A stretch of DNA of 64,000 nt from a virus (IMGVR_UViG_3300033149_002333:1-64000); one strand, 5' to 3'. Numbered from the stretch's first letter, positions 47,212-62,948 are shown. A program made the numbers and translations. The notes: generated from the letters alone by a model not told the origin.

Positions 47212-48280
47212 GATAAACCTCCTTTTCCTGGTTGGTTATGGCGGTGGGGTTGAACATTTTTAGGGCTTTGCGCCGGGCGTTGACTCCGAGCAACTCGGGG
47301 TCGGATTCTAGGGTTTGAATTATGGCTTCGGCTAGGGCTGTGGAGTTGCCCTCTGGGGCTAGGCAGCCTACGTCTGAGCTGACGAATTCCGACAACCATT
47401 CTATATCATAGCCTACAATAGGTGCCCCGCATAAGGCTGCTTCGACGATGGTTGAACCCCCGTAAGGAGAAAGAAAAACCTGATGCGAGCGATATAGCTG
47501 ATGGAGTTTTATCTGCGTAACCCAACCAGTAAAGCGTACCAATCCGGGGGCTTTTTGGCTGGCGTAGGTTGCGATGCGTTCATAAGCCGGGCCGGAGCCA
47601 GCGATTGTGAGCGTGACGTGCGCTTGAGCCACGGCGTCGATGCAATCGAGGACGTAGGATTCGTATTCGGTTGATAGGCGGCTGACGTAAAGGCATGTGC
47701 CTAGTGGCTCGGAGCGCTGAGGTTCGACATAATGAATCGGATGAATGCCTATGTTGCGTATGGTTGGGACGGGGTAGCTAACGTATCTGGAAGCCCAAGC
47801 GGAGTTGTTGGCATTCCCACCGAAAACCAAAGCCGCGTCTCGCATGACACGTTCGGCTAGATGGAGAAAGAGTTTCCATTTGAGGGGTGAGTTGCAATAC
47901 CACCCCCGATCGTGCATGAAGCCGAAGTTGGCGCCAACGTAAACTACATAAGGCAAGTTGAAGCGCTTGGACAGTTGGCGAGCTATTAGGCCACAAGTAG
48001 AGGGATTGCCCGCTTTGATGATAGTTAAGCCGGGGTGGTCGGCGATAATCTCCTCAACGGTGCGCTGCAACTTCATATATCCGCGCAAACCCCGATTGAA
48101 ATCACGCACATAAGCACGTTGCCTCGGGGCGTCGAGGCGTAGTTCTTGATCGCACTGGGGGTGGAGGGTGTAAACCTGGTCGAAAAATCCTCCGAGGGTG
48201 CGTTGGTAGATAACTTCCCACATCTCGTTGCGAGTCAAAACCGGGATGGAGGATGGAATGATGGTTATTAGAGTTGGCAT
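47189..48280 (-). CDS. GT4-type glycosyltransferase
   Basis: A 363-residue protein from M at 48280, AAGGAG upstream (a longer frame from 48364 overlaps a small membrane gene). It has two Rossmann-like halves. The second carries C-L-Y-V-S-R-L-S, L-T-I-A-G-S-G-P, V-R-F-T-G-W-V and the sugar-nucleotide E-A-A-L-C-G-A-P-I-V-G-Y block, as in GT-B family 4 enzymes. It likely adds a sugar to a surface glycan. Confidence 0.85.
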   Translation of the reverse strand: MPTLITIIPSSIPVLTRNEMWEVIYQRTLGGFFDQVYTLHPQCDQELRLDAPRQRAYVRDFNRGLRGYMKLQRTVEEIIADHPGLTIIKAGNPSTCGLIARQLSKRFNLPYVVYVGANFGFMHDRGWYCNSPLKWKLFLHLAERVMRDAALVFGGNANNSAWASRYVSYPVPTIRNIGIHPIHYVEPQRSEPLGTCLYVSRLSTEYESYVLDCIDAVAQAHVTLTIAGSGPAYERIATYASQKAPGLVRFTGWVTQIKLHQLYRSHQVFLSPYGGSTIVEAALCGAPIVGYDIEWLSEFVSSDVGCLAPEGNSTALAEAIIQTLESDPELLGVNARRKALKMFNPTAITNQEKEVYRVILEKS

Positions 48281-48294
48281 TTTGGGTTGGCTCC

Positions 48295-48456
48295 TTAACC
48301 AGAAAGTAGAAAAATACCAGTTATAAGTGCGGCGGAGAGGATAAGGGATGCTCCAAGAATACATAAACCCACTCTGGTCCCGACACTATAGAAGAGTCCG
48401 GCAAAGATAGCTCCAAACACGGCTGAAATGAGTAGAATACCTATAATTTCGCGCAT
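48295..48456 (-). CDS. 53-residue two-helix membrane protein
   Basis: Reads MREIIGILLISAVFGAIF then AGLFYSVGTRVGLCILGA and SLILSAALITGIFLLSG. GGAGGA precedes the ATG. Mostly transmembrane, Gly/Ala-rich, with a Leu/Ile/Ala zipper-like pattern. Unknown role, short but well supported by site and packing. Confidence 0.6.
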   Translation of the reverse strand: MREIIGILLISAVFGAIFAGLFYSVGTRVGLCILGASLILSAALITGIFLLSG

Positions 48457-48803
48457 GGTCTGTCCTCCTCCAGTTTGTTTATTCCCTCCCTCAGCGCTTC
48501 AATAAACGCCTCGATCTGTTCTTTGCTGTCAAACAAAAACTCAGAGTCAACCCGGACCGAGACGCCTGATAGGATTTTCAGAGCAGCCCTTAGGCGTGTC
48601 CGCAGCTTGGCCCAAAAGCCCGTTGGCCAGCAAGGATAATACATCCGACGATATAGGCTCAACTCGACGTATCCCGGAGTGTCTTGGTGACGTTCTAGCG
48701 TTAAGTCCAGGTGGCATTCATCCCCACCACAAGCGCATCCCGCTCTGTACCATACTTCCAAACCATCTGTTTCATCCAGCTTCATTACTCTGTTTGAAAT
48801 CAT
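48441..48803 (-). CDS. hypothetical protein
   Basis: A 120-residue acidic protein with a Cys cluster near the start (C-A-C-G-G-D-E-C-H-L), then mixed helices and strands. GGGGAG lies 8 bases before the ATG. It overlaps the upstream gene by 32 bases and the downstream membrane gene by 16. No family recognised. Confidence 0.6.
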   Translation of the reverse strand: MISNRVMKLDETDGLEVWYRAGCACGGDECHLDLTLERHQDTPGYVELSLYRRMYYPCWPTGFWAKLRTRLRAALKILSGVSVRVDSEFLFDSKEQIEAFIEALREGINKLEEDRPCAKL

Positions 48804-49050
48804 TGCGCTTTCTCCCCACCAGTAATATATCGCCCGGTCCTAGACTGCATATCGCATGTGGTGCGTCTTTATCGAGCAACCACAGCCGCTCCACTTCGTT
48901 GATTCTGTTCGAGATAATAAACCACTCGCGTTGCTCCTTGCATAACAGTGCGTGTGCTTTTACAAGTCCATCGCGTCGTTCTATTTCTCGGTTGAGATCC
49001 TCGATATGTCGCTGAGCCCATTTAGGTAATTTTGCTATCCTCGAAATCAT
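48772..49050 (-). CDS. DUF7239-like small protein
   Basis: A 92-residue protein from 49050 with AGGAGG. The motif L-P-K-W-A-Q-R-H-I-E-D-L-N-R-E-I is a recurrent phage small-protein start followed by a coiled coil. Function unknown. Confidence 0.6.
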   Translation of the reverse strand: MISRIAKLPKWAQRHIEDLNREIERRDGLVKAHALLCKEQREWFIISNRINEVERLWLLDKDAPHAICSLGPGDILLVGRKRNDFKQSNEAG

Positions 49051-49307
49051 TCCACCTCCTCCGCTAACTTCGCCAGCACGTCTCCATGACAAGCCAGTGG
49101 CTTACACCAACACCCTAAGGTTTTACCTTTTAGTTCATACAGTGCTTCCATCAAATCTTTTCTGCCTCTTATGTACGCTTCGTATTTGGCTATAACATCG
49201 TTTCTTGTTCCGTCCTTTCCGATCTTGAAAGGATTGCCCCACTTAGACGGCCTGCCAATGTATACGTCATAGGCGGCTTTCTTGCAGTGGACTACTTTGG
49301 TTTTCAT
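49047..49307 (-). CDS. DUF4326 domain protein
   Basis: An 86-residue protein starting at 49307 with GGGGAG. It carries the hallmark Y-I-G-R-P-S-K-W-G-N-P-F with a later G-C-W-C-K-P-L-A-C-H-G-D block of DUF4326. This family is common in phages and bacteria, with an unknown biochemical role. Confidence 0.85.
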   Translation of the reverse strand: MKTKVVHCKKAAYDVYIGRPSKWGNPFKIGKDGTRNDVIAKYEAYIRGRKDLMEALYELKGKTLGCWCKPLACHGDVLAKLAEEVE

Positions 49308-49317
49308 TTTGCTCCCC

Positions 49318-50457
49318 CTATATCGTGCCCTTCCGACAAAACTTCCTATAAAAAGACTCATGCACCAACCCGCATTTTAACATCAACCAAAACAACGGTT
49401 GATAACGCTTGAATTTGGCGCGGTAGTTGTTGTATTCTTTGTAGGAGTGTTTGGGCAGGTTGAGCCACAAGGTTAGTTGCTTAGCATCAACGCCGAGTTT
49501 GGACATCAACTCTTCTAGGTCTTCCTTGGGAAAACGCGGAGGTTCTTTGAGTTGATCCGAGGCCCAAGCTCTGGTTATGTACCCGGAGCGAATCTGAGCA
49601 GAAAGAAAGACATACCGATGGTCGATTCCATATCGAGCTGGCATGTAGTGTTGGTGCCAAAATGCAGTTAGAAGATTCTCTCCATGTTTGGAGGAGTAGG
49701 CGGTCCAGTTGTAGCATTTGATCAGCTCTTCTTGCATGTCGCGTTTTGATTTAGAGAGATGATAAAGCGGACGGATTAGTTTTACGCGTTTGCGGAGTCG
49801 GTAATGCAATTGCTTGCTGAACGAGAAGTCTGGAAAGTTCATTTCCTCAAGGGAAATATTGGAACGTTTAGCTACGTCACTTATGTAAGCATAGTCCATA
49901 TACAACCAATCCATCGGAGCTATGCCTTCGGTGCGAAAGTTGTGGCCTTCGAATATATAAGGAGTTTGGTGAAGCTCGGCCTGTTCGTACAGAGCTGCTG
50001 CTAAACCAATATCTGCGGGTGCTTCGAAGTCTGGCAAACCCCGATTAAGAAAGGCTCGAACGAGGTGGTTGTAAAGCTCGAAGTCTACCTTGCGAACGAC
50101 AAGCGGAACGTTTAAGGCCTTGGTTATGGATTGCATGTTGGTCATAGCGAAAGGTTTAGACCAACCGTTGTCGAAGTTTACTGCTATAGGATTTAGATCC
50201 AGAAATTTAGCCAAACGCAGCATATAACTCGAATCAGTTCCACCCGAAACTCCGACTATAACCTTGCCATCGCCGGTTTTGCGTTTGATATCTTTAGCCA
50301 ATTTCTCCAAAGCCTGAAGGCCGCGGTTGCCGGTTGGGTATTTGCGGCTTAGGTCGACGTGCATTTGGCAATAGTTGCATAGACCGTTGGGTCCGATCCG
50401 AACCGTCCTGGACATTGCCGGAGTCATTAAGCAGATGTTGCATTTGACGTATGGCAT
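49318..50457 (-). CDS. N-acetyl sugar amidotransferase (WbpG/PseA-like)
   Basis: A 379-residue protein. Two Cys pairs, C-N-I-C (6-9) and C-N-Y-C (27-30), precede V-S-G-G-T-D-S-S-Y at 70-78, the PP-loop. Later E-G-H-N-F-R-T-E-G and the C-terminal Y-G-I-D-H-R-Y-V block fit the N-acetyl sugar amidotransferase family that, with a HisH-like glutaminase and a HisF-like partner, turns an N-acetyl group into an acetamidino group on 2,3-diamino-uronic acid or legionaminic/pseudaminic-type sugars. No HisH/HisF partner was seen here. It is the third PP-loop enzyme in the island. Confidence 0.8.
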   Translation of the reverse strand: MPYVKCNICLMTPAMSRTVRIGPNGLCNYCQMHVDLSRKYPTGNRGLQALEKLAKDIKRKTGDGKVIVGVSGGTDSSYMLRLAKFLDLNPIAVNFDNGWSKPFAMTNMQSITKALNVPLVVRKVDFELYNHLVRAFLNRGLPDFEAPADIGLAAALYEQAELHQTPYIFEGHNFRTEGIAPMDWLYMDYAYISDVAKRSNISLEEMNFPDFSFSKQLHYRLRKRVKLIRPLYHLSKSKRDMQEELIKCYNWTAYSSKHGENLLTAFWHQHYMPARYGIDHRYVFLSAQIRSGYITRAWASDQLKEPPRFPKEDLEELMSKLGVDAKQLTLWLNLPKHSYKEYNNYRAKFKRYQPLFWLMLKCGLVHESFYRKFCRKGTI

Positions 50458-50462
50458 GATAC

Positions 50463-51023
50463 TTATTCTCCGCTGGATATCGGGTGGTAGAATATTTTGC
50501 TGCCGCTAATCACGAGGCGTTTGCGTGGTTTGCAAGGTTGGCCTACGCAGAGGGTGTAGCTGGGCAGGTCACGATCCACGAACGATCCTGCGCCGATGAT
50601 GACGTGGTCGCCGATTTTAACGCCCATTGCTATAACGGTTTGAGGGCCTACAAAAACACAATCCCCGATTTTAACTGGCTTATATGTGTAGGGAGCTTCG
50701 CCGTTGGTGAGTGCCCAATTGACTGCTGAGTGGGTATAAATCTGCACCCCGGCTGAGATGGAGCAGTTGGAGCCGATAGTCAGACCACCCGATCCGTCAA
50801 GCACAGTAAAAGGCCCAATCCAGGTACGATCGCCAACTCCGACTTCCCCAAAAACATACGAACTTTGATAAATCGATGTATCTTCGCCAAAGTTTTCCCA
50901 TTTAGCACGCTCCCAACGATCAAAGGGAAGTTCAAACCAAGGCAGAGAACGATTATAGGCGAGTTGCATCTGCACGCGTTGAATCTCGTATAGATTTTGC
51001 AAGTCGCGTTCGAGGTCAGACAT
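50463..51023 (-). CDS. hexapeptide-repeat acyltransferase (maltose O-acetyltransferase-like)
   Basis: A 186-residue protein with left-handed beta-helix repeats such as V-G-D-R-T-W-I-G-P, L-T-I-G-S-N-C-S-I-S-A and I-G-D-H-V-I-I-G-A-G. I-Y-T-H-S marks the acyl-acceptor His region. It transfers an acyl group from CoA, likely to a sugar. A GGAGG site precedes. Confidence 0.8.
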   Translation of the reverse strand: MSDLERDLQNLYEIQRVQMQLAYNRSLPWFELPFDRWERAKWENFGEDTSIYQSSYVFGEVGVGDRTWIGPFTVLDGSGGLTIGSNCSISAGVQIYTHSAVNWALTNGEAPYTYKPVKIGDCVFVGPQTVIAMGVKIGDHVIIGAGSFVDRDLPSYTLCVGQPCKPRKRLVISGSKIFYHPISSGE

Positions 51024-52290
51024 TTAGGGCCTCCTTAGAGAAGGTTATGTAGGTCGAGTCTATAGAGGTGGATACTATGCAGTACTTTAGTGCTCCGAAT
51101 GTAGTGAGAGGGTTAGTTACCCGATCCGCCATGACTGGAGTGGCATAAGCCTCGACGAAGTTTTTGTCTAGAATAAGAAAGTCGATGGAATGTTCAACCA
51201 AACGACGTTTGAGTTCGTCCAAAGTTAGGTAGGGATAAAAACCTTTCAAGTTGTCGAAGCCATATCCGTGGCCACCCCAGAGGACTTGGCAGCGGCATTT
51301 GTAGGCAAGCATATCGCACAAAGAGAGTGGCAAGCAGGCTACTCGATGGTGGGGTTTGATTTGAGCCATGATGCGTGTGAGGGTTGGATTCTCGCTAGCT
51401 AGAAAAGGACTAGCTAGGGAGTCAGCTAGGATAGCAACCAAAAAAGTCAACCCCGCGAGGGTGTAGAGCGTGGTGGGCAGCGGTCCCAGGTTGCAAATCC
51501 CTACAGCAGCCGGAAGCGCAGCGTATTTGTAGTATTTCCAACCTTCACCAAAGATTCGCAGGGGAACGGTGGTGGCTATGGCGAGGGTGATGACGATTAG
51601 TATCCAGGCGACGAACGGATGCTCAGGAGTATGCCAGAAACCCGCCAAGCCTAGGAAAATTGGGGCACCGTGGAAAAGGTGCCGCTTGATTTGCCCACTC
51701 CATGCTTCATTAAATGAAGGGTTTAGTAGAATGTGGGGTTCGTCTGGTTTGGGCTGACGAAAGGCCCAAGTCCAGAAGCGTAGAATGTCTAGGTGAGCGC
51801 GTAGGATTTTCCAGTAGCCTAGTGGGAGTGCCAGCACGGCAGCTGGCAGAAGCACATACCAAGCTGGCCAAACCAAAAACTGTACCGCCATCTTGTGCGA
51901 AAGGAGCGTCGCGAAAGCCGGGATGAAGTTCCAGGGTGGCTGAATGGTTAGAGTAAGCACAACCAACAAGCAACTCCAAGCCCGAGCATTGAGATTGCGG
52001 AATTCGCTTAGGCAAGTGGGTGTTAGGAAGTAAACTATACCTACTATTGGGCTAGCATACACCCCGCAGATAATTGCAGTAATTAGATGGACGCTCAGCG
52101 AAATCCACGAGGCGGAGCGTTCGAGGAACTTGAGGGGGAAGAGTGCTAGTATCCATTTGAACATGTTCGGATACCAGTACTCCTGGTCGAGCAGATGCAG
52201 GCGCACCTTAGGCCAGAGGGTGCGTTGCTCCTTGACTTCGCGTATTTGGACTAAGTGCGACCATCCATCAGCCATGCGTGGGGTTGGCAT
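51016..52290 (-). CDS. polytopic membrane protein, GT-C-like
   Basis: A 424-residue protein starting at 52290 after AAGGAG. Eight or more hydrophobic helices cover about 35-310, then a soluble domain of about 110 residues with G-H-G-Y-G-F-D-N-L and E-H-S-I-D-F-L-I-L-D. This membrane-plus-soluble layout is that of GT-C glycosyltransferases that use lipid-phosphate sugars, but the N-terminal D/E catalytic motif is not certain. One copy of the recurrent palindrome lies inside it, coding S-F-N-E-A. Confidence 0.6.
   Translation of the reverse strand: MPTPRMADGWSHLVQIREVKEQRTLWPKVRLHLLDQEYWYPNMFKWILALFPLKFLERSASWISLSVHLITAIICGVYASPIVGIVYFLTPTCLSEFRNLNARAWSCLLVVLTLTIQPPWNFIPAFATLLSHKMAVQFLVWPAWYVLLPAAVLALPLGYWKILRAHLDILRFWTWAFRQPKPDEPHILLNPSFNEAWSGQIKRHLFHGAPIFLGLAGFWHTPEHPFVAWILIVITLAIATTVPLRIFGEGWKYYKYAALPAAVGICNLGPLPTTLYTLAGLTFLVAILADSLASPFLASENPTLTRIMAQIKPHHRVACLPLSLCDMLAYKCRCQVLWGGHGYGFDNLKGFYPYLTLDELKRRLVEHSIDFLILDKNFVEAYATPVMADRVTNPLTTFGALKYCIVSTSIDSTYITFSKEALNV
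51706..51718. promoter_or_regulatory. recurrent palindrome TTCATTAAATGAA, copy 4
   Basis: Inside the GT-C-like gene, with flanks GC and GG. It codes the same residues (S-F-N-E-A, minus strand) as copy 5. Being in coding sequence, it may be a chance or transferred copy, or an intragenic regulatory site. Confidence 0.35.
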
Positions 52291-52291
52291 T

Positions 52292-52732
52292 TTAGGCTCC
52301 TTTGTGAATTCTGCCCGGGACGCCGACAATCACAGCACTCGCCGGGACGTCGCGCGTGACCACGCTCCCAGCTCCTACCATTGCACCATGACCTATAGTA
52401 ATACCAGGCAATATAATCGCCCCGGCTCCTATAGATGCGTGGGATTTGATTTTAACGCGTTCGAATTTTCCCCGAACTCCGGCTCGGGGGTATTTGACGT
52501 TGCAAACAATAACCCCCGGTCCGACGAAGACATAATCTTCTAGCTCCGTGCCTTCGTAAAGCATAACCGAATCTTGCAATCGACACTTGTTCCCAATCAC
52601 AACCCCCTGACCGATAATGCAGTTGCGACCTATACTACAATCCCGGCCTATGCGAGCGTCGCGGGCAACGTAGGTATTAGGCCAAACAACAGTATCTTTG
52701 CCGATGTGAGCGGACGGACTAATATACGACAT
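52292..52732 (-). CDS. sugar N-acetyltransferase (WbpD/WlbB-like)
   Basis: A 146-residue left-handed beta-helix protein. It has I-G-R-N-C-I-I-G-Q-G-V-V-I-G-N-K-C and later I-G-A-G-A-I-I-L-P-G-I-T-I-G, with a V-V-T-R-D-V-P end typical of UDP-2-acetamido-3-amino-2,3-dideoxy-glucuronate N-acetyltransferases. The dehydrogenase right upstream and the aminotransferase at 43119 would provide its substrate. It overlaps the dehydrogenase gene by 14 bases. Confidence 0.85.
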   Translation of the reverse strand: MSYISPSAHIGKDTVVWPNTYVARDARIGRDCSIGRNCIIGQGVVIGNKCRLQDSVMLYEGTELEDYVFVGPGVIVCNVKYPRAGVRGKFERVKIKSHASIGAGAIILPGITIGHGAMVGAGSVVTRDVPASAVIVGVPGRIHKGA

Positions 52733-53612
52733 TGCTGATTTTCTCCGCTAGTTGAATAGCCGGGGCACAGCTTTCGACGGTCGGACCTCGGCCTTTGAGG
52801 ATGGCTTGGTAGTTGGGTATGTGCAGATTGTTGAAGCCTTCTGAGAAGTTGAAAGTCTTCGAATCGCCAGAATCGTGGATTGTTATCTCGCGTTGCAGGG
52901 GAGCTCGGGGGTGGATTGATATATGGATGTTGATCGGACGTTCGAAATAATGCAAAGCGCATTCGATGGTGTGTCTGGGGTCGAAGGCCAGCGGGCGGCC
53001 TTCGACCTCGACTCTTCCCGGGTCGATGTCAAACGCCCAGCACAATAAATCGAGAATATGAATTCCGATATTGAATACCAACCCGCCACTCATCTCACGC
53101 CGTGCTTTCCAAGTGCTCGAATACCAAGCCCCGCGCGGGGAGTTGTAGGTTATGTCGATTATCGGACTGTTGGTCAAAGCTGCCATACGGAGTAGCTTGC
53201 TGGCGTTGGGGTGATAACGCAACTGACTAATCCCCCAGATTTTGCGGGGGCGTAGGAGTTCGAGGCGTTCCAACTGCTTAGCTCCGAGGGCTATCGGCTT
53301 CTCGATGATGATTTCGGACGACATAAAAGGTAAGTGCTGGTGGATGTATTCCGCCTGCGAAACGTGTAGATAATTCGGGGTTGCTATTACGACGTAATCA
53401 GCGCTCCATAAGTCCGACTCCGAGATTTGGTTCTCGGAGTCGTAAGCTACATAGCGCGCAGCTGGAAAGTATTGCTCCAGATAGCCTACGTTCTCGTGTG
53501 GGTCGGCGGCTACGAGTAGGCGTCCGCCAACTTCTTTAATGGCTTTGACGTGCGAGCGGGCTATATAACCTGCTGCGCCTAGTAGAACAAAGGTTGGCGT
53601 GTCGCTAGGCAT
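52719..53612 (-). CDS. sugar nucleotide dehydrogenase (WbpB/WlbA-like, Gfo/Idh/MocA)
   Basis: A 297-residue enzyme. L-G-A-A-G-Y-I-A-R-S-H-V-K-A-I-K at 11-26 binds NAD and is the WlbA/WbpB version (G-A-A-G-Y-I-A-x-R-H-x-K-A-I). The family E-K-P is at 104-106 and M-S-G-G-L-V-F-N-I-G-I-H-I-L-D at 174-188 carries the active-site His region. It oxidises the 3-hydroxyl of UDP-N-acetylglucosaminuronic acid to a keto group, the first step to the 2,3-diamino acid sugar. It is the clearest sugar-pathway assignment in the island. Confidence 0.88.
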   Translation of the reverse strand: MPSDTPTFVLLGAAGYIARSHVKAIKEVGGRLLVAADPHENVGYLEQYFPAARYVAYDSENQISESDLWSADYVVIATPNYLHVSQAEYIHQHLPFMSSEIIIEKPIALGAKQLERLELLRPRKIWGISQLRYHPNASKLLRMAALTNSPIIDITYNSPRGAWYSSTWKARREMSGGLVFNIGIHILDLLCWAFDIDPGRVEVEGRPLAFDPRHTIECALHYFERPINIHISIHPRAPLQREITIHDSGDSKTFNFSEGFNNLHIPNYQAILKGRGPTVESCAPAIQLAEKISNVVY

Positions 53613-53869
53613 TATCGAGCCTCCCGGGGTTGGGGAACGACCTCGAACTGTCTGGGAAGTAGCCGAACAAAACCTTCGTCGTCGACCACCACAACATAGA
53701 AGATTTTGGTTATAGGTTTGGGTTGCCTGCTTTGGGGTGGTGCAATAGGAGCCTGCTGAGACTGTACGGCTTGGGGTTGCTGAGGTGGTTGAACTGGGGC
53801 CGAAGTCTGTGCCAGAGCGTTCGAAGCGAACAGCAGAACCGCTAGCACAATCAAGCTAACTTTCCGCAT
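53612..53869 (-). CDS. secreted Pro/Gln-rich protein
   Basis: An 85-residue protein from M at 53869, AAGGAGG before. Residues 1-21 (M-R-K-V-S-L-I-V-L-A-V-L-L-F-A-S-N-A-L-A-Q) form a signal peptide with A-L-A cleavage. The mature part is a Pro/Gln linker (about 24-55), then a small strand set (F-Y-V-V-V-V-D-D-E-G-F). Periplasmic; role unknown. Confidence 0.65.
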   Translation of the reverse strand: MRKVSLIVLAVLLFASNALAQTSAPVQPPQQPQAVQSQQAPIAPPQSRQPKPITKIFYVVVVDDEGFVRLLPRQFEVVPQPREAR

Positions 53870-53871
53870 TT

Positions 53872-54222
53872 CTAATCCTCCTTGTTTAGACACTCTTCCA
53901 ACTGCTTTCGCAACTCAATAAGCCGGTGCAACATCAGGATTCGTTGCATCTCGCAGTTGCCTAGTTTGTCCCGACACGTTTGCGGGGGAGTGGGGGTCGG
54001 CGGGGGTTGTTCAAAAACACACTCCCCGTCAACCCACTTCCCGCCCATCAGCTCGCAGGTTAGGTTGTTAGCGTAAACACCAACATGCCAGCCCAATCCG
54101 AGGATGAGAAGCAAACAAACAACTGAAATCCTCGCTCTCGCAGGACGCTTAGATCCAAGCCTTCGAGTTTTCTGACCCGAATCGTATACGGCCCAAACGG
54201 ACCGAATGTTACCCTTCCGCAT
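53872..54222 (-). CDS. putative envelope protein with signal anchor
   Basis: Up to 116 residues; the true start may be a later TTG near 54110, after GAGGA, because the longer frame overlaps the 54060 gene by 163 bases. A hydrophobic segment (V-V-C-L-L-L-I-L-G-L-G-W) is followed by a Pro-rich linker and four or more Cys (C-E-L-M-G, G-E-C-V-F, T-C-R-D-K, N-C-E-M). The end is a charged helix. It could be periplasmic or outer-membrane linked. Confidence 0.5.
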   Translation of the reverse strand: MRKGNIRSVWAVYDSGQKTRRLGSKRPARARISVVCLLLILGLGWHVGVYANNLTCELMGGKWVDGECVFEQPPPTPTPPQTCRDKLGNCEMQRILMLHRLIELRKQLEECLNKED

Positions 54223-54530
54223 GGTGTTGCCTCCGTGGTGACTGCGCCGGTGCCGGTTACGTAACGCACGGTTCCATCCGGAGCTATGGTTCCGGCGTAG
54301 ATGTTGTACGTTCCGGCTTGGGGGAGGACGCAGGTTGGTGAGAATTTGTTCGAAGCGAGGGGCCGTTCCACTTCAGTTATGCCTTCGGCGACTTCGTAGC
54401 GCTGAGTTGGAGTTGCCAAATAGCCCTTGATTGCGTCGAGGATACTAGCATAAATTGCCTGCCACGAAACCTCGGCTTTGGGTTGGACGTTTGAGATAAT
54501 TACTTCGGTCAAATGGGTGATGTCGTTCAT
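54060..54530 (-). CDS. hypothetical beta-rich protein
   Basis: A 156-residue protein with an N-terminal helix and strands rich in Thr/Gly/Val after about 65 (A-G-T-Y-N-I-Y-A-G-T-I). The C-terminus (L-F-V-C-F-S-S-S-D-W) lies in DNA shared with the next gene. A structural type, but no family is recognised and no signal peptide is present. Confidence 0.6.
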   Translation of the reverse strand: MNDITHLTEVIISNVQPKAEVSWQAIYASILDAIKGYLATPTQRYEVAEGITEVERPLASNKFSPTCVLPQAGTYNIYAGTIAPDGTVRYVTGTGAVTTEATPCGRVTFGPFGPYTIRVRKLEGLDLSVLRERGFQLFVCFSSSDWAGMLVFTLTT

Positions 54531-55132
54531 TTTACTTCTCCTTCCTTGTTTAGGATTCGTGCTGGATTGCCTACCACTGTAACTCCACTTGGAACATCCT
54601 TAACTACAACTGCTCCCATTCCAACAAAGGCTTCATCACCAACCGTAACATCCCCGCGAATCAGTGCGCCGGGCGAGACCCAAACCCAATTACCTAATTT
54701 AGCCCCGCCGCAAATCACGGCACCGGTTCCGATGATGCAGTGCTCGCCGATTTCAACATTATGCCCGATTTTGGCGAGGGCGTTGATTTTAGTTCCGGCT
54801 CCGATACGGGTTGGTTCGCGCGTTCCACTCGAAATGTCGACGAATGGATAAATCTCGACGTCGTCTCCAAGCACAACCCCGGCGCAGCTTGGTATGTGGA
54901 GCCAACCTTCGGGAGTGCGAGCATAACCAAATCCCGGCGAGCCGATTTGGGCCGTTGGATGAATGCGCTGCCGTCCGTAGGTCGGCTCGGGTTCGATGTG
55001 TTTACCTTTCAGATCGGGCGTTGCTGCGTCGAGCTGTCGGGCGAACTCGGCCCGGGGGTTGGAGCTAGGAATGTAGCGTTCGCCGATCCAAACACCGTGG
55101 TCGTCGTACCGAATGTCGTTTAGGTCAAGCAT
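54527..55132 (-). CDS. LpxD-like hexapeptide acyltransferase
   Basis: A 201-residue protein. I-G-S-P-G-F-G-Y-A-R-T-P-E-G at 63-76 and I-N-A-L-A-K-I-G-H-N-V-E-I-G (about 115-128) match LpxD hallmarks (I-G-x-x-G-F-G-Y and the H-N-V block holding the catalytic His). The N-terminal region is shortened compared with the usual about 340 residues, and the substrate could be a sugar nucleotide other than UDP-3-acyl-glucosamine. Acyl transfer to a surface sugar or lipid A-type molecule is inferred. Confidence 0.75.
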   Translation of the reverse strand: MLDLNDIRYDDHGVWIGERYIPSSNPRAEFARQLDAATPDLKGKHIEPEPTYGRQRIHPTAQIGSPGFGYARTPEGWLHIPSCAGVVLGDDVEIYPFVDISSGTREPTRIGAGTKINALAKIGHNVEIGEHCIIGTGAVICGGAKLGNWVWVSPGALIRGDVTVGDEAFVGMGAVVVKDVPSGVTVVGNPARILNKEGEVK

Positions 55133-55144
55133 ATCGAACCTCTC

Positions 55145-55780
55145 TCACCAACGCTTAACTCCTTTCCACATGGCTTTGAGTTGCGTGTCTTGAACCTTTG
55201 CAGCTAAGTCCCTAATGCGTTCCCAGCCGGTCCACCATTCTGGGTGGAGGTTGATTTCGTACAATACTTGATCATCCGGGCGAGGGCTGAAATTCAAGGG
55301 TCGGTTGTTGGAGTCGGCTAGATAGACATACTCTGGGGAGTTTGGGTCGTTGGTTACAGCACTTGGACATGCCACACCGCCGCCTCCGTGGAGGGTAGGC
55401 GTATCGAAGTATGCTTCCAGACCTACGATCGCACTCACCATTGCGTCGGCTAGGTAGTCGATATGCGAATCCTTGGGATAATAAACATGCAGCCCAACAT
55501 CGAAGCCGAGCGAAGTAATCTCGTCGACAATCGCGATGTTCTCAGGCAGCATCAAATTATAAAACGGCGAATCCAGGCAAAAGAAATAAGTCGACGGAAC
55601 ATCGAGATAAGACTCCGTCTTAGCCATCTCCAAGGCCGCCGGGGGCCAGCAGTCAACATCATGCCTCAACCATATAGCCGGGGCATAGACGTCGACATCT
55701 TCCAAACTACTCACAAAAACATGCTTAGCTTCTTTGCATTTTTGGATAAACTCCGCATAATCCTTTAATCCTTTACCCAT
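55145..55780 (-). CDS. polysaccharide deacetylase-like protein
   Basis: A 211-residue protein. W-L-R-H-D-V-D at 37-43 contains the R-H-D-V-D signature of this fold, and S-T-Y-F-F then D-V-G-L-H-V-Y-Y supplies a likely metal His. It may deacetylate N-acetyl sugars or be an inactive relative. It precedes the LpxD-like gene in transcription, which would re-acylate. Confidence 0.7.
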   Translation of the reverse strand: MGKGLKDYAEFIQKCKEAKHVFVSSLEDVDVYAPAIWLRHDVDCWPPAALEMAKTESYLDVPSTYFFCLDSPFYNLMLPENIAIVDEITSLGFDVGLHVYYPKDSHIDYLADAMVSAIVGLEAYFDTPTLHGGGGVACPSAVTNDPNSPEYVYLADSNNRPLNFSPRPDDQVLYEINLHPEWWTGWERIRDLAAKVQDTQLKAMWKGVKRW

Positions 55781-57015
55781 TGTTGCACCTCCGAGTTGGC
55801 AAGATGATAGTAAGTCTCCAACTTTTCGATGCCGAGGGCTCGTCGACCCAATCGGAGGGCTGCTACCAAACTTGCCCCACTGCCTGCGAATGGGTCGCAG
55901 ACTAGCTCGCCCTCAACCGTCGAGGCTTCGATTAGGTATTCGATGACTTCGGGTGGTTTTTGGGCTGGGTGAAGTTTTTGAGCTGGGGGTTTGGCTTCGA
56001 TGACGGCGTAGAGAGGATTGATAAACGGTTTAGGAGCTCCGCGTGAGAAGCAGATTATAGGTTCGTAGTCTTGTTTAATGGTTAGATAAGGCTGGCTCGC
56101 GTGAGCGACGCGGGGTTTGTACCAAATCGAGAATTGGTCTTTGACGGCGTAGTCTAAGTCGCGCAAAATTCTATACATAGCCCCGCTTAGCAGGTGCTTC
56201 GAAGCGCAAAACAGCCAGCACAAACTCCCAGGAACGAGCTTGGGCTTGAGGAGTTCGAGGACGGTTTTGGTGTCGTTCAAGGTCCAGCTTTCGGAGTTGA
56301 ATTGCGAGTCGTACTCAACGTCCCAAGGCGGGTCGGTTATTAAGCAGTCAATCGAGTTGTCAGGCAGTATCGGGATGATTTCGCGACAATCGCCGCGCTT
56401 GAGCAGGAGTTTCTGGCTCGCATCAAGCGCAGGCGCGGCTTCGGGTTTAGACTCCGGCTTTTGCTCAGCCGACTCTTGCTTCAACGCGCTCAACATAACC
56501 CGCGCATTAAGGTGTTGCTGACGTTTGTAGGCATTCCAAGCCTGAATTTTGGTTTTGCATTGCTTAAAACCTTCAGGATTAGACTTAACTGCTTTAGCAA
56601 GTTGCAAATCTTGACTCAACTTGCCAGTCGAAATGCCTAAATGCTCCGCAGTATCTTGTTGAAACCACTCTCTATCCGCATTACGAGCTAGCAGTTTATG
56701 AACTCGTTCCTTAGCATCCAGTTTCTCTTGCCAAGTCAAGCCCTGCCTGCGGATGTTTTCTTCGAGTTCGATCAGTTCCTTTTTCCATTGGGGCAAATCA
56801 CTGAAACACTCGGCTCGAATGTGGGTCCAGCCGAGTTGCCGCGCGGCCCTAACGCGACATTCGCCAGCGATTATATAATCGTCCTCGTCGATCACAATAG
56901 AATGAATCTGCCCGGTCAAGCGGAGCGACTCGGCCAGCTTATCGATATAATCCGGATCGACATGCTGCCGCTGCCTATCGGGTTTGATTTTGAGTTTCGC
57001 AAGTTCGACTTTCAT
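55765..57015 (-). CDS. ParB-like domain fused to a DNA methyltransferase
   Basis: A 416-residue protein. Residues 1-110 are ParB-nuclease-like (I-I-A-G-E-C-R-V-R-A-A at 48-58), followed by a DNA-binding helical part about 90-170. From about 200 the methyltransferase starts: D-P-P-W at 228-231 (amino-methyl, N4-C or N6-A type) and C-D-P-F-A-G-S-G-A-S near 376-385 as the SAM site. It would protect or mark phage DNA. Such ParB-MTase fusions are known in phages. Confidence 0.85.
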   Translation of the reverse strand: MKVELAKLKIKPDRQRQHVDPDYIDKLAESLRLTGQIHSIVIDEDDYIIAGECRVRAARQLGWTHIRAECFSDLPQWKKELIELEENIRRQGLTWQEKLDAKERVHKLLARNADREWFQQDTAEHLGISTGKLSQDLQLAKAVKSNPEGFKQCKTKIQAWNAYKRQQHLNARVMLSALKQESAEQKPESKPEAAPALDASQKLLLKRGDCREIIPILPDNSIDCLITDPPWDVEYDSQFNSESWTLNDTKTVLELLKPKLVPGSLCWLFCASKHLLSGAMYRILRDLDYAVKDQFSIWYKPRVAHASQPYLTIKQDYEPIICFSRGAPKPFINPLYAVIEAKPPAQKLHPAQKPPEVIEYLIEASTVEGELVCDPFAGSGASLVAALRLGRRALGIEKLETYYHLANSEVQQWVKD

Positions 57016-57323: not shown

Positions 57324-57593
57324 CTACGCTTCGGCCAACATAGCCATGAGCTTCTCGACCTGCTCTGGCGATGCAGTCTTGAGCATGTTGATCAGCTCCC
57401 GGGGGATTCCGCCGCCGGTGACTTCGCGGCGCTTGGCATCGGTCCAACGGATCTTCCGCTGCTGGAGATAGAGTTTGAAGATTTTCTCTTCGCCGTCGAC
57501 CTCAAGCGCCTCGTCGAGGCTTTCTGGGTAGGCATAATCGCCACTCCAAACAACGGACCCTTTGGATTTGATTTCCACTTGTTCGGTCTGCAT
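57324..57593 (-). CDS. paralogue of the 562 gene
   Basis: An 89-residue protein with an AAGGAG site. It shares P-E-S-L-D-E-A-L-E-V-D-G-E-E and K-L-Y-L-Q-Q-R-K with the first plus-strand gene. The C-terminal helix (E-L-I-N-M-L-K-T-A-S-P-E-Q-V-E-K-L) differs. Unknown role, but kept in two copies. Confidence 0.75.
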   Translation of the reverse strand: MQTEQVEIKSKGSVVWSGDYAYPESLDEALEVDGEEKIFKLYLQQRKIRWTDAKRREVTGGGIPRELINMLKTASPEQVEKLMAMLAEA

Positions 57594-57663: not shown

Positions 57664-58122
57664 TTAGTATTCGAAGCCAGCTACATCGCTCGTCGGGGGC
57701 GCGTCTTGGTCGTCAACCCACTGGCCGGCTTCGTTCTGCTTACGGGCAGGCACTTGCTTAATGCGAACAACCCCGGATAGATTAACATACTCATCCGGAT
57801 CGATCGCCGAGCCGGTCCAGGGCTTGCCGACAGCTTTGCAAAGGCCCACCAAATTGCCCACGCCGGTGATGATTACTTCACCCGTAACCGGATCAGGCCA
57901 GGGCAACATGGTCATGAAACGCTGCCTGCGCGTTTTGCCGGATTCGACTTCGACCGCCAGCTGCCACACTAAATAAGGCCGCCCGGGGTTTTTGGAGGTT
58001 TCGCCACTTTCGAGTTTCTCCCATGACAAAATAGTGAACGGATACGTCCCTGGCGGGATCGGTTTGGGTCGGTCTTCGTCTTTTACATCGTCGAAATTCA
58101 CGTTCAGGTCAATCGTTGGCAT
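57664..58122 (-). CDS. DUF669-like protein of the recombination module
   Basis: A 152-residue protein. I-P-P-G-T-Y-P-F-T-I-L-S-W-E-K-L-E-S-G is the family opening (P-x-G-x-Y-x-x-x-I). DUF669 proteins usually sit next to a Sak4-type ATPase, as here, and are thought to bind single-stranded DNA. AAGGAG site. Confidence 0.75.
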   Translation of the reverse strand: MPTIDLNVNFDDVKDEDRPKPIPPGTYPFTILSWEKLESGETSKNPGRPYLVWQLAVEVESGKTRRQRFMTMLPWPDPVTGEVIITGVGNLVGLCKAVGKPWTGSAIDPDEYVNLSGVVRIKQVPARKQNEAGQWVDDQDAPPTSDVAGFEY

Positions 58123-58179: not shown

Positions 58180-59001
58180 CTAATCACCTCCTTTCGGTTG
58201 GGATAGACGCTCGATCGAACCGGCGATGGAGCGATAGTGGGTAGGCAGCGGGCTGGCTAGGTCGAAGCGACTGCCAGCCACCACCGGACCTGCGCCTTGG
58301 GTGTGCATTAGGTATTCCGCCTTGCCGCCTTTGGGGCGGGTGAAGGTATGATAAACCTCATCGAAATACCCAGCTACTTCGCTGGCTAGTTTGCCGACGA
58401 AATTAGGCCGCACCTCAATCACGGCTCCGGATTCTTTGTCTTCGCGGATTTCTTGATGGGCGATGCAGACGAAGTTAATTCCAGGTAGGGCGCGGCCGTC
58501 GGTTAGCAAGCCGAGCATCAGGTTGCGCAGCTTGCCCCATTCGGGCTGGGTGATTTTGTGCGTTTGCTTCAAAAACGCGGCATGGCGTCCGGTTAGGCAT
58601 AAAACTTGATCCAGGGCCATTTTGCTGAGAGAGGTTACTTCATCGAGAACGACTGTTTTGGGTTTGACTCCAGCATATTCGCTGCGTTCTTTTAGATGGT
58701 CGAAGGCCGTGCGAACGGTTAGCCAGCCGATATGTTGGCTGGCTGGGCCGACTTTAATGATGCGGTCTTCGATGGGTACGCGGTAGATTTTGTCCAAATG
58801 CTTGATTCGCCCGGCTGTGGCTGCAGTTTTGAGCGTTAGTAAGCCGCGCCCAGAGTCGAGAAATAGCACTTCGCCCAGCTCAGCCCACGTGCCAGCGAAC
58901 TCGGTCTTGCCGGTCTTGGGCATCCCGTAGATTAGGATGTCGTATTTGGTTGGAACGAACTTAGCTAAAGATTCGGGGTCGGGGAGGGTTATTTGGGTCA
59001 T
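58180..59001 (-). CDS. Sak4-like RecA-fold ATPase
   Basis: A 273-residue protein with Walker A G-M-P-K-T-G-K-T at 26-33 and Walker B V-V-L-D-E-V near 117. Its size matches Sak4-type phage annealing or strand-exchange ATPases. With the nuclease at 62013 and DUF669 it forms a phage recombination set. Confidence 0.8.
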   Translation of the reverse strand: MTQITLPDPESLAKFVPTKYDILIYGMPKTGKTEFAGTWAELGEVLFLDSGRGLLTLKTAATAGRIKHLDKIYRVPIEDRIIKVGPASQHIGWLTVRTAFDHLKERSEYAGVKPKTVVLDEVTSLSKMALDQVLCLTGRHAAFLKQTHKITQPEWGKLRNLMLGLLTDGRALPGINFVCIAHQEIREDKESGAVIEVRPNFVGKLASEVAGYFDEVYHTFTRPKGGKAEYLMHTQGAGPVVAGSRFDLASPLPTHYRSIAGSIERLSQPKGGD

Positions 59002-59381
59002 TAGCTAGGCTCCTTTGTGGCTAGGGCGTTTTCGTAGACTGCTGAGACGAGGTCCGACGCATCGATTAATTGACGCGGCATATTCGGCTCGCAAGAATGA
59101 TGATACATTGCAACACACGCAGCGAATCTCAAAGCGCTGCGTATTCCCTGTAAAAGCTCCGGATTTTCCGAGGCCCGAGCCATTCGCAGTATGCTTGCAG
59201 CTTCCCACAGTAAAGCAGTGGTGTCGTTCAATTCGGGGTTGCAGGTACATTCTTGGGGACACTGTCGATAGTTAGATTTGATGCCGTCTTGACAATTCGG
59301 AGCGTGGACTAACTTGCGCAAGGACAGTTCTAGTTTTTTAGCTTTGTTCTGTAGTCCTTCTGTCCAAACTTCTTTGGTCAT
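59001..59381 (-). CDS. Cys-rich four-copy family protein, copy A
   Basis: A 126-residue protein. The core reads L-R-K-L-V-H-A-P-N-C, then C-P-Q-E-C-T-C-N-P-E-L-N-D-T-T-A-L-L-W-E-A-A. The same core appears in three more genes here. Four Cys and His suggest zinc or disulphide binding. No known family. The last base overlaps the Sak4-like gene start. Confidence 0.75.
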   Translation of the reverse strand: MTKEVWTEGLQNKAKKLELSLRKLVHAPNCQDGIKSNYRQCPQECTCNPELNDTTALLWEAASILRMARASENPELLQGIRSALRFAACVAMYHHSCEPNMPRQLIDASDLVSAVYENALATKEPS

Positions 59382-59764
59382 CGTTTGACCTCCCCCGAAA
59401 TGGACCTAATGAAGGCTATTCTAATCGTTTGCACTGTCTCCCACAACAACATTGCTGGAGGTTCTTTGTAGGGGTCGTGATGACGATTAACAGCGTCGTA
59501 CAAAACTTGTGCTCCACACAAGAGCGCGTGGAGCATATGTGTTCTGTCTTCGTCCCGGGCGTGCCTCAATACATCAGCGGCCTTCCACAGCATAGCGGTG
59601 AAATCGTTGAGTTCTGGATCGCAGCCGCATTGCTGAGGGCAAATTCGGTACTCAAGCGCGGGGTCGCTCGTGCAGCCCGGGGCGTGGACGCATTTGCGTA
59701 GTTTCATTTCCAACTCTTCGCATTTGTTTCTCGATTCTTCTGTCCAAGCCTTTTCAGTCACCAC
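59378..59764 (-). CDS. Cys-rich four-copy family protein, copy B
   Basis: A 128-residue protein from a GTG start. L-R-K-C-V-H-A-P-G-C then C-P-Q-Q-C-G-C-D-P-E-L-N-D-F-T-A-M-L-W-K-A-A. Tandem with copies A and C, sharing 4- to 7-base overlaps, so it arose by local duplication. Confidence 0.75.
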   Translation of the reverse strand: MVTEKAWTEESRNKCEELEMKLRKCVHAPGCTSDPALEYRICPQQCGCDPELNDFTAMLWKAADVLRHARDEDRTHMLHALLCGAQVLYDAVNRHHDPYKEPPAMLLWETVQTIRIAFIRSISGEVKR

Positions 59765-60132
59765 TCAACCTCCTTTTCGTCCACAAACTTACGGTGCATC
59801 TTCCACAGCACGACCTCTGCCCGATCCAACGCTTGTACTCGTGGGTCCTTAGGATCGTTGTGGTGGTAAATAGCCGTATTAAACAAGGTGCTCACACCTA
59901 CTGCGAACAGGTTTGTATGAACTGGGAAAAACTCCCGCGCACGCTTTAGGTATTTCGCGGCTTGCCACAGAATGGCCGTGAAGTCGTCGAGCTTTGGATT
60001 GCAAGAGCAACCCCTGGGGCAGTCGTTAGGGTCAGCCTCGCAATCCGGAGCGTGGGCAAACCTCCGTAGGTCTGTCTCCACTTTTTTAGACTCTTCAACT
60101 AAGCTCTTTAGGTCAGTTTGCACGTTGGTCAT
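59758..60132 (-). CDS. Cys-rich four-copy family protein, copy C
   Basis: A 124-residue protein. L-R-R-F-A-H-A-P-D-C then C-P-R-G-C-S-C-N-P-K-L-D-D-F-T-A-I-L-W-Q-A-A. The C-terminus with Y-H-H matches the H-H pair of copies A and D. AAGGAGG site. Confidence 0.75.
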   Translation of the reverse strand: MTNVQTDLKSLVEESKKVETDLRRFAHAPDCEADPNDCPRGCSCNPKLDDFTAILWQAAKYLKRAREFFPVHTNLFAVGVSTLFNTAIYHHNDPKDPRVQALDRAEVVLWKMHRKFVDEKEVEW

Positions 60133-60159
60133 TGTTCGACCTCCTTTCCAAAGGCCACA

Positions 60160-60357
60160 CTACGATTCATCCTCTGTAGAAACGGTTATTCCAGAACCAC
60201 CTTTTGGTACAGTGATTGTATTGTTTGAAACCGTAACTTCAACCTGAACAGAAATGAGAGCCTTTGAGAGGTTCTCGATTGCCCGCGACACTGCGGCGAT
60301 TGCTTCCATCTTCTCAGTGGACGTGTTCGGTATTGCTACGTTGATTGGTTTACTCAT
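60160..60357 (-). CDS. 65-residue hypothetical protein
   Basis: From M at 60357 with GAGGAG before. It has a helix (E-A-I-A-A-V-S-R-A-I-E-N-L-S-K-A-L) and a Thr/Val-rich strand set. It has a recurrent palindrome 32 bases before its start. No family recognised. Confidence 0.6.
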   Translation of the reverse strand: MSKPINVAIPNTSTEKMEAIAAVSRAIENLSKALISVQVEVTVSNNTITVPKGGSGITVSTEDES

Positions 60358-60373
60358 CTTTAATAGTCTCCTC

Positions 60374-60967
60374 TCACAACCTAATCGCTTCATTAAATGA
60401 AGCCTTAGGTGCGTCAATAAGCACCTGAACCGCGGCGCTCAACTTCAGAGGCTCGCTGACGTGCATATACCTACCACCTGTTGCTTCGGCGATGGATTTG
60501 AGCAACCGTTCGGCCTCTGCTCGGTCGTAGCCATCCTGGAAGAAACCAACGGTGTCGACCTTGCAGTAGGGATGCTTTCTGACTTCTTCGAGGATGGTGT
60601 TTGGCGTAGCGTCAGTCGGCATACCGTCGCTCAGCAAGACAGCATGCGATGGTGCACCCGGCTGCCAAGCGTATTCTAAGGCTGCTAGCATGGCGGTGTT
60701 GCCAGCTGTCGTCAGTCTGTCTATATCCTGCTCCGTGATCTCATACAAATCCGAGCCGAACCCTACGCACTCAAACCCCGGCTTCCAAATGTCACGCAAA
60801 GCGCGCTTCAAGCCTTCCAACTTCTCTCCGGCCATCGAACCGGAGATGTCTGCTAGCAGAAGAACCTTATTCGATTGGACCACGGCCTTCGTTTGACTGA
60901 GCTTAACTCCGCGAACTCCAGCCTTAACCACTGCCGAGCTTCTAGCATCGGTCTTTGCGACATCCAT
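60374..60967 (-). CDS. von Willebrand factor A domain protein
   Basis: A 197-residue protein. D-I-S-G-S-M at 40-45 is the MIDAS metal site (D-x-S-x-S), T 91 (G-N-T-A-M) and D 114 (L-L-S-D-G-M-P-T-D) complete it. VWA domains mediate metal-dependent protein contacts and often partner with AAA ATPases. Here it lies among recombination genes, next to a J-domain protein. The last codons contain a recurrent palindrome. Confidence 0.85.
   Translation of the reverse strand: MDVAKTDARSSAVVKAGVRGVKLSQTKAVVQSNKVLLLADISGSMAGEKLEGLKRALRDIWKPGFECVGFGSDLYEITEQDIDRLTTAGNTAMLAALEYAWQPGAPSHAVLLSDGMPTDATPNTILEEVRKHPYCKVDTVGFFQDGYDRAEAERLLKSIAEATGGRYMHVSEPLKLSAAVQVLIDAPKASFNEAIRL
60389..60401. promoter_or_regulatory. 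recurrent palindrome TTCATTAAATGAA, copy 5
   Basis: The flanks make a perfect 17-base palindrome GCTTCATTAAATGAAGC at 60387-60403. It lies at the 3' end of the VWA gene, 32 bases before the start of the 60160 gene. It codes S-F-N-E-A. Confidence 0.5.
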
Positions 60968-60969
60968 CC

Positions 60970-61449
60970 CTAACTCCTTTCTTCTCCGTTTGCAAGTTCG
61001 CCCAAAATTTCCTTGTACGCCGCGTTTATCTTCTGCATTGCTTCGACGTCGCCACCTTTGTCGGGATGATATTTCTGCGCGAGGGTTTTGTAGGCAGCGC
61101 GCACGATCTCAAGCGGGGCGTTGGGAATGAGATACAACCTCGACCAGGCATCCGCAGCGACTTCATGTGCAGGAAAATCAATAAGCTGAACTTCATCAAA
61201 ATACTCCTCCATAATCAAGCACAAACGGTCGAATTGCGACTTGACGACATACCAACATTTGTCGTTTTTGTCCCAAAGTCGGTGTTTGGCTGCGATACTT
61301 TTCTTAAGGGTTTCAGTGAAGGCTTTGTTATAACCCGCGTCTACTTGCAACATTACACCATTAGGTAAGTGTCGGATTGAAGCGATGCTGCGACCAAGTG
61401 GACGGCGGGTGCGTTGGCCTGCGGAACTAATTGGTCGGAGGCGTCTCAT
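60970..61449 (-). CDS. J-domain protein with an N-terminal HARP-like segment
   Basis: A 159-residue protein from M at 61449, with AAGGAG before. Residues 50-75 include H-R-L-W-D-K-N-D-K-C-W-Y-V-V, similar to HARP or annealing-helicase associated repeats. The C-terminal 55 residues form a J-domain: A-A-Y-K-T-L-A-Q-K-Y-H-P-D-K-G-G with H-P-D at 128-130. It would recruit a host DnaK-type chaperone. J-domains are used by some phages for replication complex remodelling. It overlaps copy D. Confidence 0.8.
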   Translation of the reverse strand: MRRLRPISSAGQRTRRPLGRSIASIRHLPNGVMLQVDAGYNKAFTETLKKSIAAKHRLWDKNDKCWYVVKSQFDRLCLIMEEYFDEVQLIDFPAHEVAADAWSRLYLIPNAPLEIVRAAYKTLAQKYHPDKGGDVEAMQKINAAYKEILGELANGEERS

Positions 61450-61823
61450 CGTTGCGACTCCTTGTGGGGGGTGCAAGCTCTCTTGTAGACCTGTTTGATT
61501 AGATCCACTGCTTCCTGAAGAGTTCCTGCTGCTGAGTTGCTGAACAGCTCGTGGTGAAAGCACACAGTGTTTCGAAGGACAGACAGGACTGCTAAACGCT
61601 CATGGAGTGCCGTGGCGTCGGTGGTCCAGCGAGCGTATTCCAACCACCCTGCTGCCGTCCACAGAATGGCAGTGAAATCACTGAGATGGGGGTCGCAGCC
61701 ACACCCCCTCGGACATGCGTCGGGGTCACCTTCGCAATCTGGAGCGTGTACGTGCTTGCGTAACCGTCGTTCTATCGTCTTGCATTCTTTGAGCAGTTCC
61801 TCAGTCCAAACCTCTTCATTCAT
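61446..61823 (-). CDS. Cys-rich four-copy family protein, copy D
   Basis: A 125-residue protein. L-R-K-H-V-H-A-P-D-C then C-P-R-G-C-G-C-D-P-H-L-S-D-F-T-A-I-L-W-T-A-A. It is separated from copies A-C by the VWA and J-domain genes but still in the same operon. AAGGAGG site. Confidence 0.75.
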   Translation of the reverse strand: MNEEVWTEELLKECKTIERRLRKHVHAPDCEGDPDACPRGCGCDPHLSDFTAILWTAAGWLEYARWTTDATALHERLAVLSVLRNTVCFHHELFSNSAAGTLQEAVDLIKQVYKRACTPHKESQR

Positions 61824-62020
61824 TGTCCTACCCTCCTTTTTAGAGTCTTAACCGGGCGCAGCTTTTTGCTCAACTTATGCACCCTGATCACTTTCTCCCA
61901 GCCTTCAGGACGCAACCAATAAGATCGAGCGTTTTCTTTAACGACCTCAACTCGATGCCGCGTTCCATCGCTAGTTACAAACCTATCAGGCTGTGGTCGC
62001 TTGATCCAAAACTTAGCCAT
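61820..62020 (-). CDS. 66-residue basic protein
   Basis: A basic protein (I-K-R-P-Q-P-D-R-F-V, then R-S-Y-W-L-R-P-E-G-W-E, then K-K-L-R-P-V-K-T-L-K-R-R). It overlaps neighbours by 4-8 bases. Nucleic-acid binding is likely but no motif is recognised. Confidence 0.6.
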   Translation of the reverse strand: MAKFWIKRPQPDRFVTSDGTRHRVEVVKENARSYWLRPEGWEKVIRVHKLSKKLRPVKTLKRRVGQ

Positions 62021-62948
62021 CTATCACTCCAAATGGGTCCCAAAAATCAACCTCATACAATGATTGCATAATAGGCTCGTGCGCGGCCAGACTGGCCAAG
62101 CTGCAAAGCGCCAGATACGGACATTCGCGATTAAAGTTCATGCAATTCCAAGCCTGTGGCCACGCGCGGAATTGTTCGTCCTCGGCCAGCGCGGCTTCGG
62201 CTTCAACCCCGCGCTTGATAGCTTCGATATGACGAATCAACGACGTTTGCCACTCGGCCATCTGCCAGTCGGTATACTCAATCGGCACGCGAGTAAGCAT
62301 CTCATCGGGCGGGGCGGATTTCGAAACTCCCAGAATATCCAACTCCCCCTTCGGACGACGGTTGCTCAGGCGCTCGACCAGCCAAGAATACGTCTGAAAC
62401 TGCGGATTAGGCACGTGGATGAATTTATTGACGTATTTCGTGGTTTTGTAATCAGCGAAAACCAGCTCCCTATCCGAACGCTCCATGATTTTGTCAATCC
62501 GCCCGCAGATATAAATCCCGTCAGCGACTTCTTCGGCAAGCGGAACTTCGACTTCCAGCACCTTACGCTCATCTTTGCGGTATTTGTCGAAGTACGCATC
62601 TAGCAGCACACTACCATAAAGCATCGTGTAGGTGGCTTTCAAGGGTTTGCCAGTCTTGGGGGAGGTGGCTTCAGGTTCTTCGAGTCCTTCGAACGCCTCT
62701 CGGAACGCTCGAAGCGCGGCATCGTCATCTCGACTAGTCAACTCCCACGTTTCCAGCGCTTGATGAATTGCGGCGCCGAAATTCAACCCGTAGCTTTGCC
62801 TCACGTTAATGTCTTTACGCACCAACCCTAGTCGATGTCGATAGAAATATTTCCTTGGACAACTCAAAAAGGTCGAGATCATCGAGTTGTCGAATATCTC
62901 AACCCCTTGAGCGCGGAGTTGCTGAATAGTCGATTCGGAGGCTTTCAA
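62013..62948 (-). CDS. PD-(D/E)XK nuclease, Cas4/RecB-like with Fe-S Cys set
   Basis: A 311-residue protein from a TTG start. S-C-P-R-K-Y-F-Y-R marks the N-terminal Cys; G-R-I-D-K-I and D-Y-K-T-T hold the catalytic acidic residues and Lys; C-M-N-F-N-R-E-C-P-Y-L-A-L-C gives three Cys near 270-285. It would process ends for recombination with the Sak4-like ATPase. Confidence 0.85.
   Translation of the reverse strand: MKASESTIQQLRAQGVEIFDNSMISTFLSCPRKYFYRHRLGLVRKDINVRQSYGLNFGAAIHQALETWELTSRDDDAALRAFREAFEGLEEPEATSPKTGKPLKATYTMLYGSVLLDAYFDKYRKDERKVLEVEVPLAEEVADGIYICGRIDKIMERSDRELVFADYKTTKYVNKFIHVPNPQFQTYSWLVERLSNRRPKGELDILGVSKSAPPDEMLTRVPIEYTDWQMAEWQTSLIRHIEAIKRGVEAEAALAEDEQFRAWPQAWNCMNFNRECPYLALCSLASLAAHEPIMQSLYEVDFWDPFGVIDG

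Follow-up and report, generated by a model that had tools for sequence, protein, structure and literature searches.

A 64,000-nucleotide stretch of a tailed phage genome (IMGVR_UViG_3300033149_002333:1-64000; hereafter, the window) carries four intact genes, A to D, for small paralogous proteins that form an orphan family. These proteins are predicted four-helix bundles, probably stabilized by zinc, that were duplicated long ago. The reading that we tentatively prefer, at somewhat less than even chances, is that they act by non-catalytic binding, with a different partner for each copy.

Four genes within a run of recombination genes

The four minus-strand ORFs listed in the sequence-only reading (at 59001, 59378, 59758 and 61446) are all present at exactly these ends (table). 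Just 5' of its start codon, each has a strong Shine-Dalgarno site that reads GGAGG or nearly so (upstream bases: A, GGGGGAGGTC; B, AAGGAGGTTGA; C, AAGGAGGTCG; D, AAGGAGGG). Most of the junctions with neighbors are overlaps of 1 to 7 nt: the stop of A and the start of the Sak4-like gene share 1 nt, and the overlaps of B are 7 nt with C and 4 nt with A. Together, the ribosome-binding sites and the overlaps indicate that A-D are translated, co-expressed genes. Differences between the copies are most frequent in third codon positions and least frequent in second positions.

The four genes lie among recombination and replication genes of the phage, the other half of which encodes the terminase, portal, capsid and tail proteins. 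In the direction of transcription, the PD-(D/E)XK exonuclease gene is followed by the 66-aa gene, D, the DnaJ and VWA genes, and the 65-aa gene, and then by C, B, A, the Sak4-like ATPase gene, and the genes for the 152-aa and 89-aa proteins. The proposal that the paralogues belong to one operon holds in the sense of a tightly packed, same-strand run, in which D is parted from C by the DnaJ, VWA and 65-aa genes; strand and spacing suggest that this run is an operon.

Table. The paralogues and the adjoining genes in transcription order. Percentages refer to orthologues in the kin phage described below.
Feature	Position	Strand	Properties and matches
PD-(D/E)XK exonuclease	62013..62948	(-)	PF12705 1.2e-26, phrog_1218 2.5e-22; kin orthologue 35%
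66-aa protein, between exonuclease and D	61820..62020	(-)	weak matches only in Pfam and PHROGs
Paralogue D	61446..61823	(-)	125 aa; HAPDC-x6-CPRGCGC, TAILWTAA, HH
DnaJ-domain protein	60970..61449	(-)	PF00226 2.6e-7; ATG overlaps D stop; kin orthologue 45%
VWA-domain protein	60374..60967	(-)	PF13768 1.5e-7; kin orthologue 40%
65-aa protein, between VWA and C	60160..60357	(-)	no family match
Paralogue C	59758..60132	(-)	124 aa; HAPDC-x6-CPRGCSC, TAILWQAA, HH
Paralogue B	59378..59764	(-)	128 aa, GTG start; HAPGC-x10-CPQQCGC, TAMLWKAA, HH
Paralogue A	59001..59381	(-)	126 aa; HAPNC-x10-CPQECTC, TALLWEAA, HH; HAPxC-to-CPxxC spacing 10 residues
Sak4-like single-strand annealing ATPase (AAA_24), immediately downstream of A	58180..59001	(-)	phrog_124 5.8e-30, PF13479 1.8e-16; kin orthologue 36%
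152-aa protein, downstream of Sak4	57664..58122	(-)	kin orthologue 46%; no Pfam match

An invariant core, old duplications and a remote relative

In the alignment of the four proteins, 25 of the 130 columns are invariant, including HAPxC, CPxxCxC, DxTAxLWxAA and a HH pair. All four copies match the core quoted previously (L-R-[KR]-x-x-H-A-P-x-C...W-x-A-A), and the HH pair (H90-H91 of D), missed in the earlier reading, is an additional invariant element. Cysteine, histidine and proline are prominent among the invariant core residues. The invariant cysteines are C30, C37, C41 and C43 (D numbering); beyond this set, HH, D49, T51 and R22 are invariant as well. Local alignment scores among the pairs range from 167 to 234, 28 to 43 standard deviations above the mean of the shuffled controls (500 per pair), among which the top score was 55. 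A degenerate DNA pattern for C-x-C-x3-L-x3-T-A-x2-W-x-A-A matches the 64 kb exactly four times (0 expected), in A, B, C and D, and a profile run against the complete record (66,975 bases) likewise finds exactly four members and no fifth copy.

Outside the core, the copies differ greatly, as had been noted: columns 18-70 are 49-63% identical in pairwise comparisons vs 9-28% for columns 71-130. Synonymous sites are saturated in the paralogue pairs (pS 0.75-0.84), with pN of 0.40-0.52, which implies that the duplications are old and that the protein sequence is constrained, mainly in the core. Because of this saturation, dN/dS between the paralogues is not measurable, and diversifying selection is indistinguishable from the ordinary drift that follows duplications of such age. 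Relaxed constraint alone might account for the divergence beyond the core. The quartet tree groups A with B and C with D (87% bootstrap), and rooting with the relative from the archaeal virus vir521 described below is unstable.

Searches with A-D yielded no match at the gathering score in Pfam-A, no useful match in PHROGs (best E 0.018), and none in NCBIfam or PADLOC, and nothing relevant to the family was found in the literature. The description of the family as unknown is thus upheld, with no well-known structural or enzymatic family among these databases to explain the copies.

In a tblastn search of the phage collection, only vir521 and vir519 were plausible, and vir521 gave the lowest E (0.03-0.08) for each of B, C and D. 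The protein in question, vir521_00034 (DBA34828.1; Caudoviricetes sp. vir521, host Methanofastidiosa, mangrove sediment), is 150 aa long (HAKECTNDPFICPRTCGC). A profile built from A-D only matches it with E 8.4e-9 per genome, or ~4e-4 once scaled up from the single genome to the size of the whole phage collection, a value at which the relationship is credible; hhalign gives a probability of 95.9% and E 5e-9. Retained in vir521_00034 are H26, A27, C30, C37, P38, C41, C43, L47 and T51 (D numbering), within a HAxxC-x6-CPRxCGC-x3-L-x3-T core of the same spacing as in C and D. Similarly to A-D, it is a small protein within a run of small genes and has a histidine near the HH position, but one instead of two. 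Unlike its window counterparts, it is a single-copy protein with no recombination genes annotated next to it; its overall identity to D is 21%, and the W-x-A-A element of D is missing. The shared core at conserved spacing argues convincingly that vir521_00034 is a relative of A-D.

The second candidate, vir519_00038 (DBA34703.1; Caudoviricetes sp. vir519, host Methanofastidiosa), matches with E 1.3e-5 per genome, at which ~0.8 such matches are expected by chance across the whole phage collection; the hhalign probability is 90.4%. Its HKPGC...CCC and TGIAWTAAD segments resemble HAPGC...CGC...TAMLWKAAD of B. It differs from A-D in lacking the CPxxC pair, with H, C, CxC and WTAA retained, and is a possible second relative. 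Two further matches in the phage collection were discarded, one with only short open frames around it (H49) and the other overlapping another gene (H51).

Searches of viral contigs by alignment, with a single protein and with motif patterns, detected no further true relative; the motif matches were other-frame overlaps or unrelated Cys-rich stretches. Among the genomes of 84,980 species, alignment and pattern searches returned chance matches only and no cellular relative, and plasmids yielded one match (E 2). Sequence matches in the PDB were mostly to designed helical proteins or repeats and were taken as compositional.

Predicted fold and candidate metal site

The AlphaFold2 model of D, obtained from the four-row alignment, has a mean pLDDT of 86.5 and pTM of 0.81 and shows, besides a short helix (residues 38-41), four long ones (8-24, 49-64, 70-91 and 97-117). 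The model of A, folded separately (pLDDT 77.9; helices 8-25, 53-69, 74-94 and 100-123), agrees with it: four helices follow in the same order, with the Cys/His cluster in the loop that joins helices 1 and 2. The invariant HH forms the end of helix 3. The cysteine cluster itself falls in the lower-confidence part of the models, where 10-residue blocks score 77-88 in D and 49-68 in A.

The bundle may have an up-and-down topology, as do many of its structural neighbors. With this topology, helices 1 and 3 end at the same pole, which would place HH near the Cys/His loop. If so, the invariant cysteines and histidines would lie at one end of the molecule, suggesting a single metal site with at most seven candidate ligands. 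Given the Cys/His ligand set in the sequences, A-D probably bind a metal, most plausibly zinc.

Foldseek searches with the model found no match at E 0.001 in the PDB or BFVD (best E 0.54 and 0.14, respectively). VIA-align Z reaches 9.7, in a range (below ~13) for which the tool warns that only a common arrangement may be shared, so that known folds appear to match the models only at the level of a generic helical bundle. The S23/Avd proteins (2rld, 2gsc, 4dwl), small four-helix proteins like A-D that include the phage-encoded Avd, are among the best Foldseek neighbors (E 0.54-1.4, not significant), with a VIA-align Z of 8.4 over 100 residues, within the generic helical-bundle range; unlike for A-D, no Cys/His knuckle is recorded for them here. 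The copper storage proteins Csp1 and Csp3 also combine a four-helix bundle with cysteines. Csp proteins have many cysteines lining the inside of the helices. All invariant cysteines of A-D are located in one loop between helices 1 and 2, and a copper storage identity was rejected on this placement.

These comparisons bear on two of the alternative explanations. A-D might be zinc-dependent nucleic-acid-binding proteins, either regulators or DNA/RNA-binding accessories, as a compact Cys/His knuckle, adjoining DNA-processing genes and the weak structural resemblance to S23/Avd, some of which occur in RNA-protein complexes, would suggest. We consider this rather unlikely, given that no known DNA-binding family was matched in Pfam or PHROGs and that the S23/Avd similarity is no better than that to generic bundles. 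Far less probable is an enzymatic role with a metal catalytic site built from the invariant His, Asp and Cys: the invariance of HH, D49, T51 and R22 besides the cysteines is the argument for it, but the predicted fold is a simple bundle, no enzyme family was matched in Pfam, PHROGs or NCBIfam, and the vir521 protein retains one histidine of the two.

A probable accessory addition to a conserved gene run

A terminase search identified the nearest sequenced relative of the phage, the kin phage IMGVR_UViG_3300033153_014453 (locus L131; 59,721 bases), with 67% identity in the capsid protein, 55% in the DNA polymerase, 55% in the portal and 47% in the terminase. This phage encodes orthologues of the exonuclease, the DnaJ and VWA proteins, Sak4, and the 152-aa and 89-aa proteins. 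Its VWA and Sak4 genes adjoin, 43 bases apart, without A, B and C between them, an unrelated gene occupies the place of D upstream of DnaJ, and no family member is detected when the complete record is searched with the profile. Other relatives recognized by capsid or terminase similarity, many of them represented by fragmentary records, also yielded no family member in the profile search. The presence of the same operon without A-D in the kin phage indicates that the family is accessory; most simply, A-D are an addition to a conserved operon and lie outside its core machinery, the alternative being that the kin phage has lost them.

The VWA and DnaJ-domain genes (60374-61449) are kept in the kin phage within the recombination operon, which suggests a conserved role there. 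The part of the window from the DNA polymerase to the 89-aa gene (42287-55780) spans ~15 kb vs ~2.4 kb in the kin phage; with asparagine-synthase-like, aminotransferase, glycosyltransferase, three hexapeptide-transferase and PP-loop genes, it looks like a phage-borne sugar or surface-polysaccharide cassette. At 55765-57015, a 416-aa protein combines a ParB-like N-terminal domain with a DNA methyltransferase. The window contains two more pairs of paralogues (439-837 and 57324-57593; 3199-3594 and 16078-16461), and the kin phage has a tandem look-alike pair of its own (L202:3856-4260 and 4266-4580, both starting with MKIKIDKNGFL), so that duplication of small genes extends beyond the window phage. 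Both phages also encode another small protein rich in Cys, which shows a CP...C-x2-C...CPC pattern (L205:1870-2292, L202:5206-5475) and, by eye, is unrelated to A-D.

Paralogues that are retained together may specialize into hetero-oligomers. A-D could accordingly be envisaged as the parts of a single hetero-oligomer acting jointly with Sak4, the exonuclease, DnaJ and VWA in recombination or replication, an arrangement compatible with the gene order and overlaps that put them within the operon; however, the kin phage has the operon without A-D, so that the machinery does not strictly depend on them, and we regard this explanation as unlikely.

Under the preferred reading, that of binding proteins with different partners, the family would have been added to the recombination and replication operon and duplicated there long ago. 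The Cys/His knuckle (HAPxC...CPxxCxC) would tie helices 1 and 2 together and fix a common scaffold, perhaps with the help of the HH pair that ends helix 3. The outer parts of helices 3 and 4, which are poorly conserved, would provide four different binding surfaces. The proteins would then act through partner binding without catalysis, the partners being host or defence proteins or the recombination machinery. We infer binding as the mode of action, with a different partner for each copy, from several features taken together: the scaffold is conserved and probably locked by a metal, the outer helices have diverged, there are four copies, their position is accessory, and no catalytic family was matched.

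A variable-specificity role, such as that of an interaction scaffold, had been suggested before, and this part of the suggestion fits the accessory status, the kept core and the diverged remainder. For its anti-defence part, we found nothing specific. A dedicated array, in which each copy counters a different host defence, would account for accessory, multi-copy proteins with a conserved core and a divergent remainder; nevertheless, PADLOC yields no match, no known anti-defence gene adjoins, and with saturated dS any recent diversifying selection is unreadable, which makes such an array quite improbable. Thus, binders of different partners rank first among the explanations considered here, followed by the hetero-oligomer, nucleic-acid binding and the anti-defence array, in that order. 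A bolder and similarly doubtful possibility is a new host-interaction family of phages and archaeal viruses, with a zinc-locked core and a binding face diversified by duplication; A-D would then serve one phage as four inhibitors, each directed at a different host or defence target.

Orphan accessory genes are common in phage early operons, and some prove to be host-takeover or counter-defence factors. A-D are a real orphan family, new but of an ordinary kind, that of duplicated accessory phage proteins, and nothing yet shows a surprising function for them. With an unusually clear core, a confidently predicted fold, four natural variants, a remote archaeal-virus relative and a kin phage whose operon, lacking the family, serves for comparison, they offer a practical test case for phage proteins in which the core is conserved and the surface diversified.
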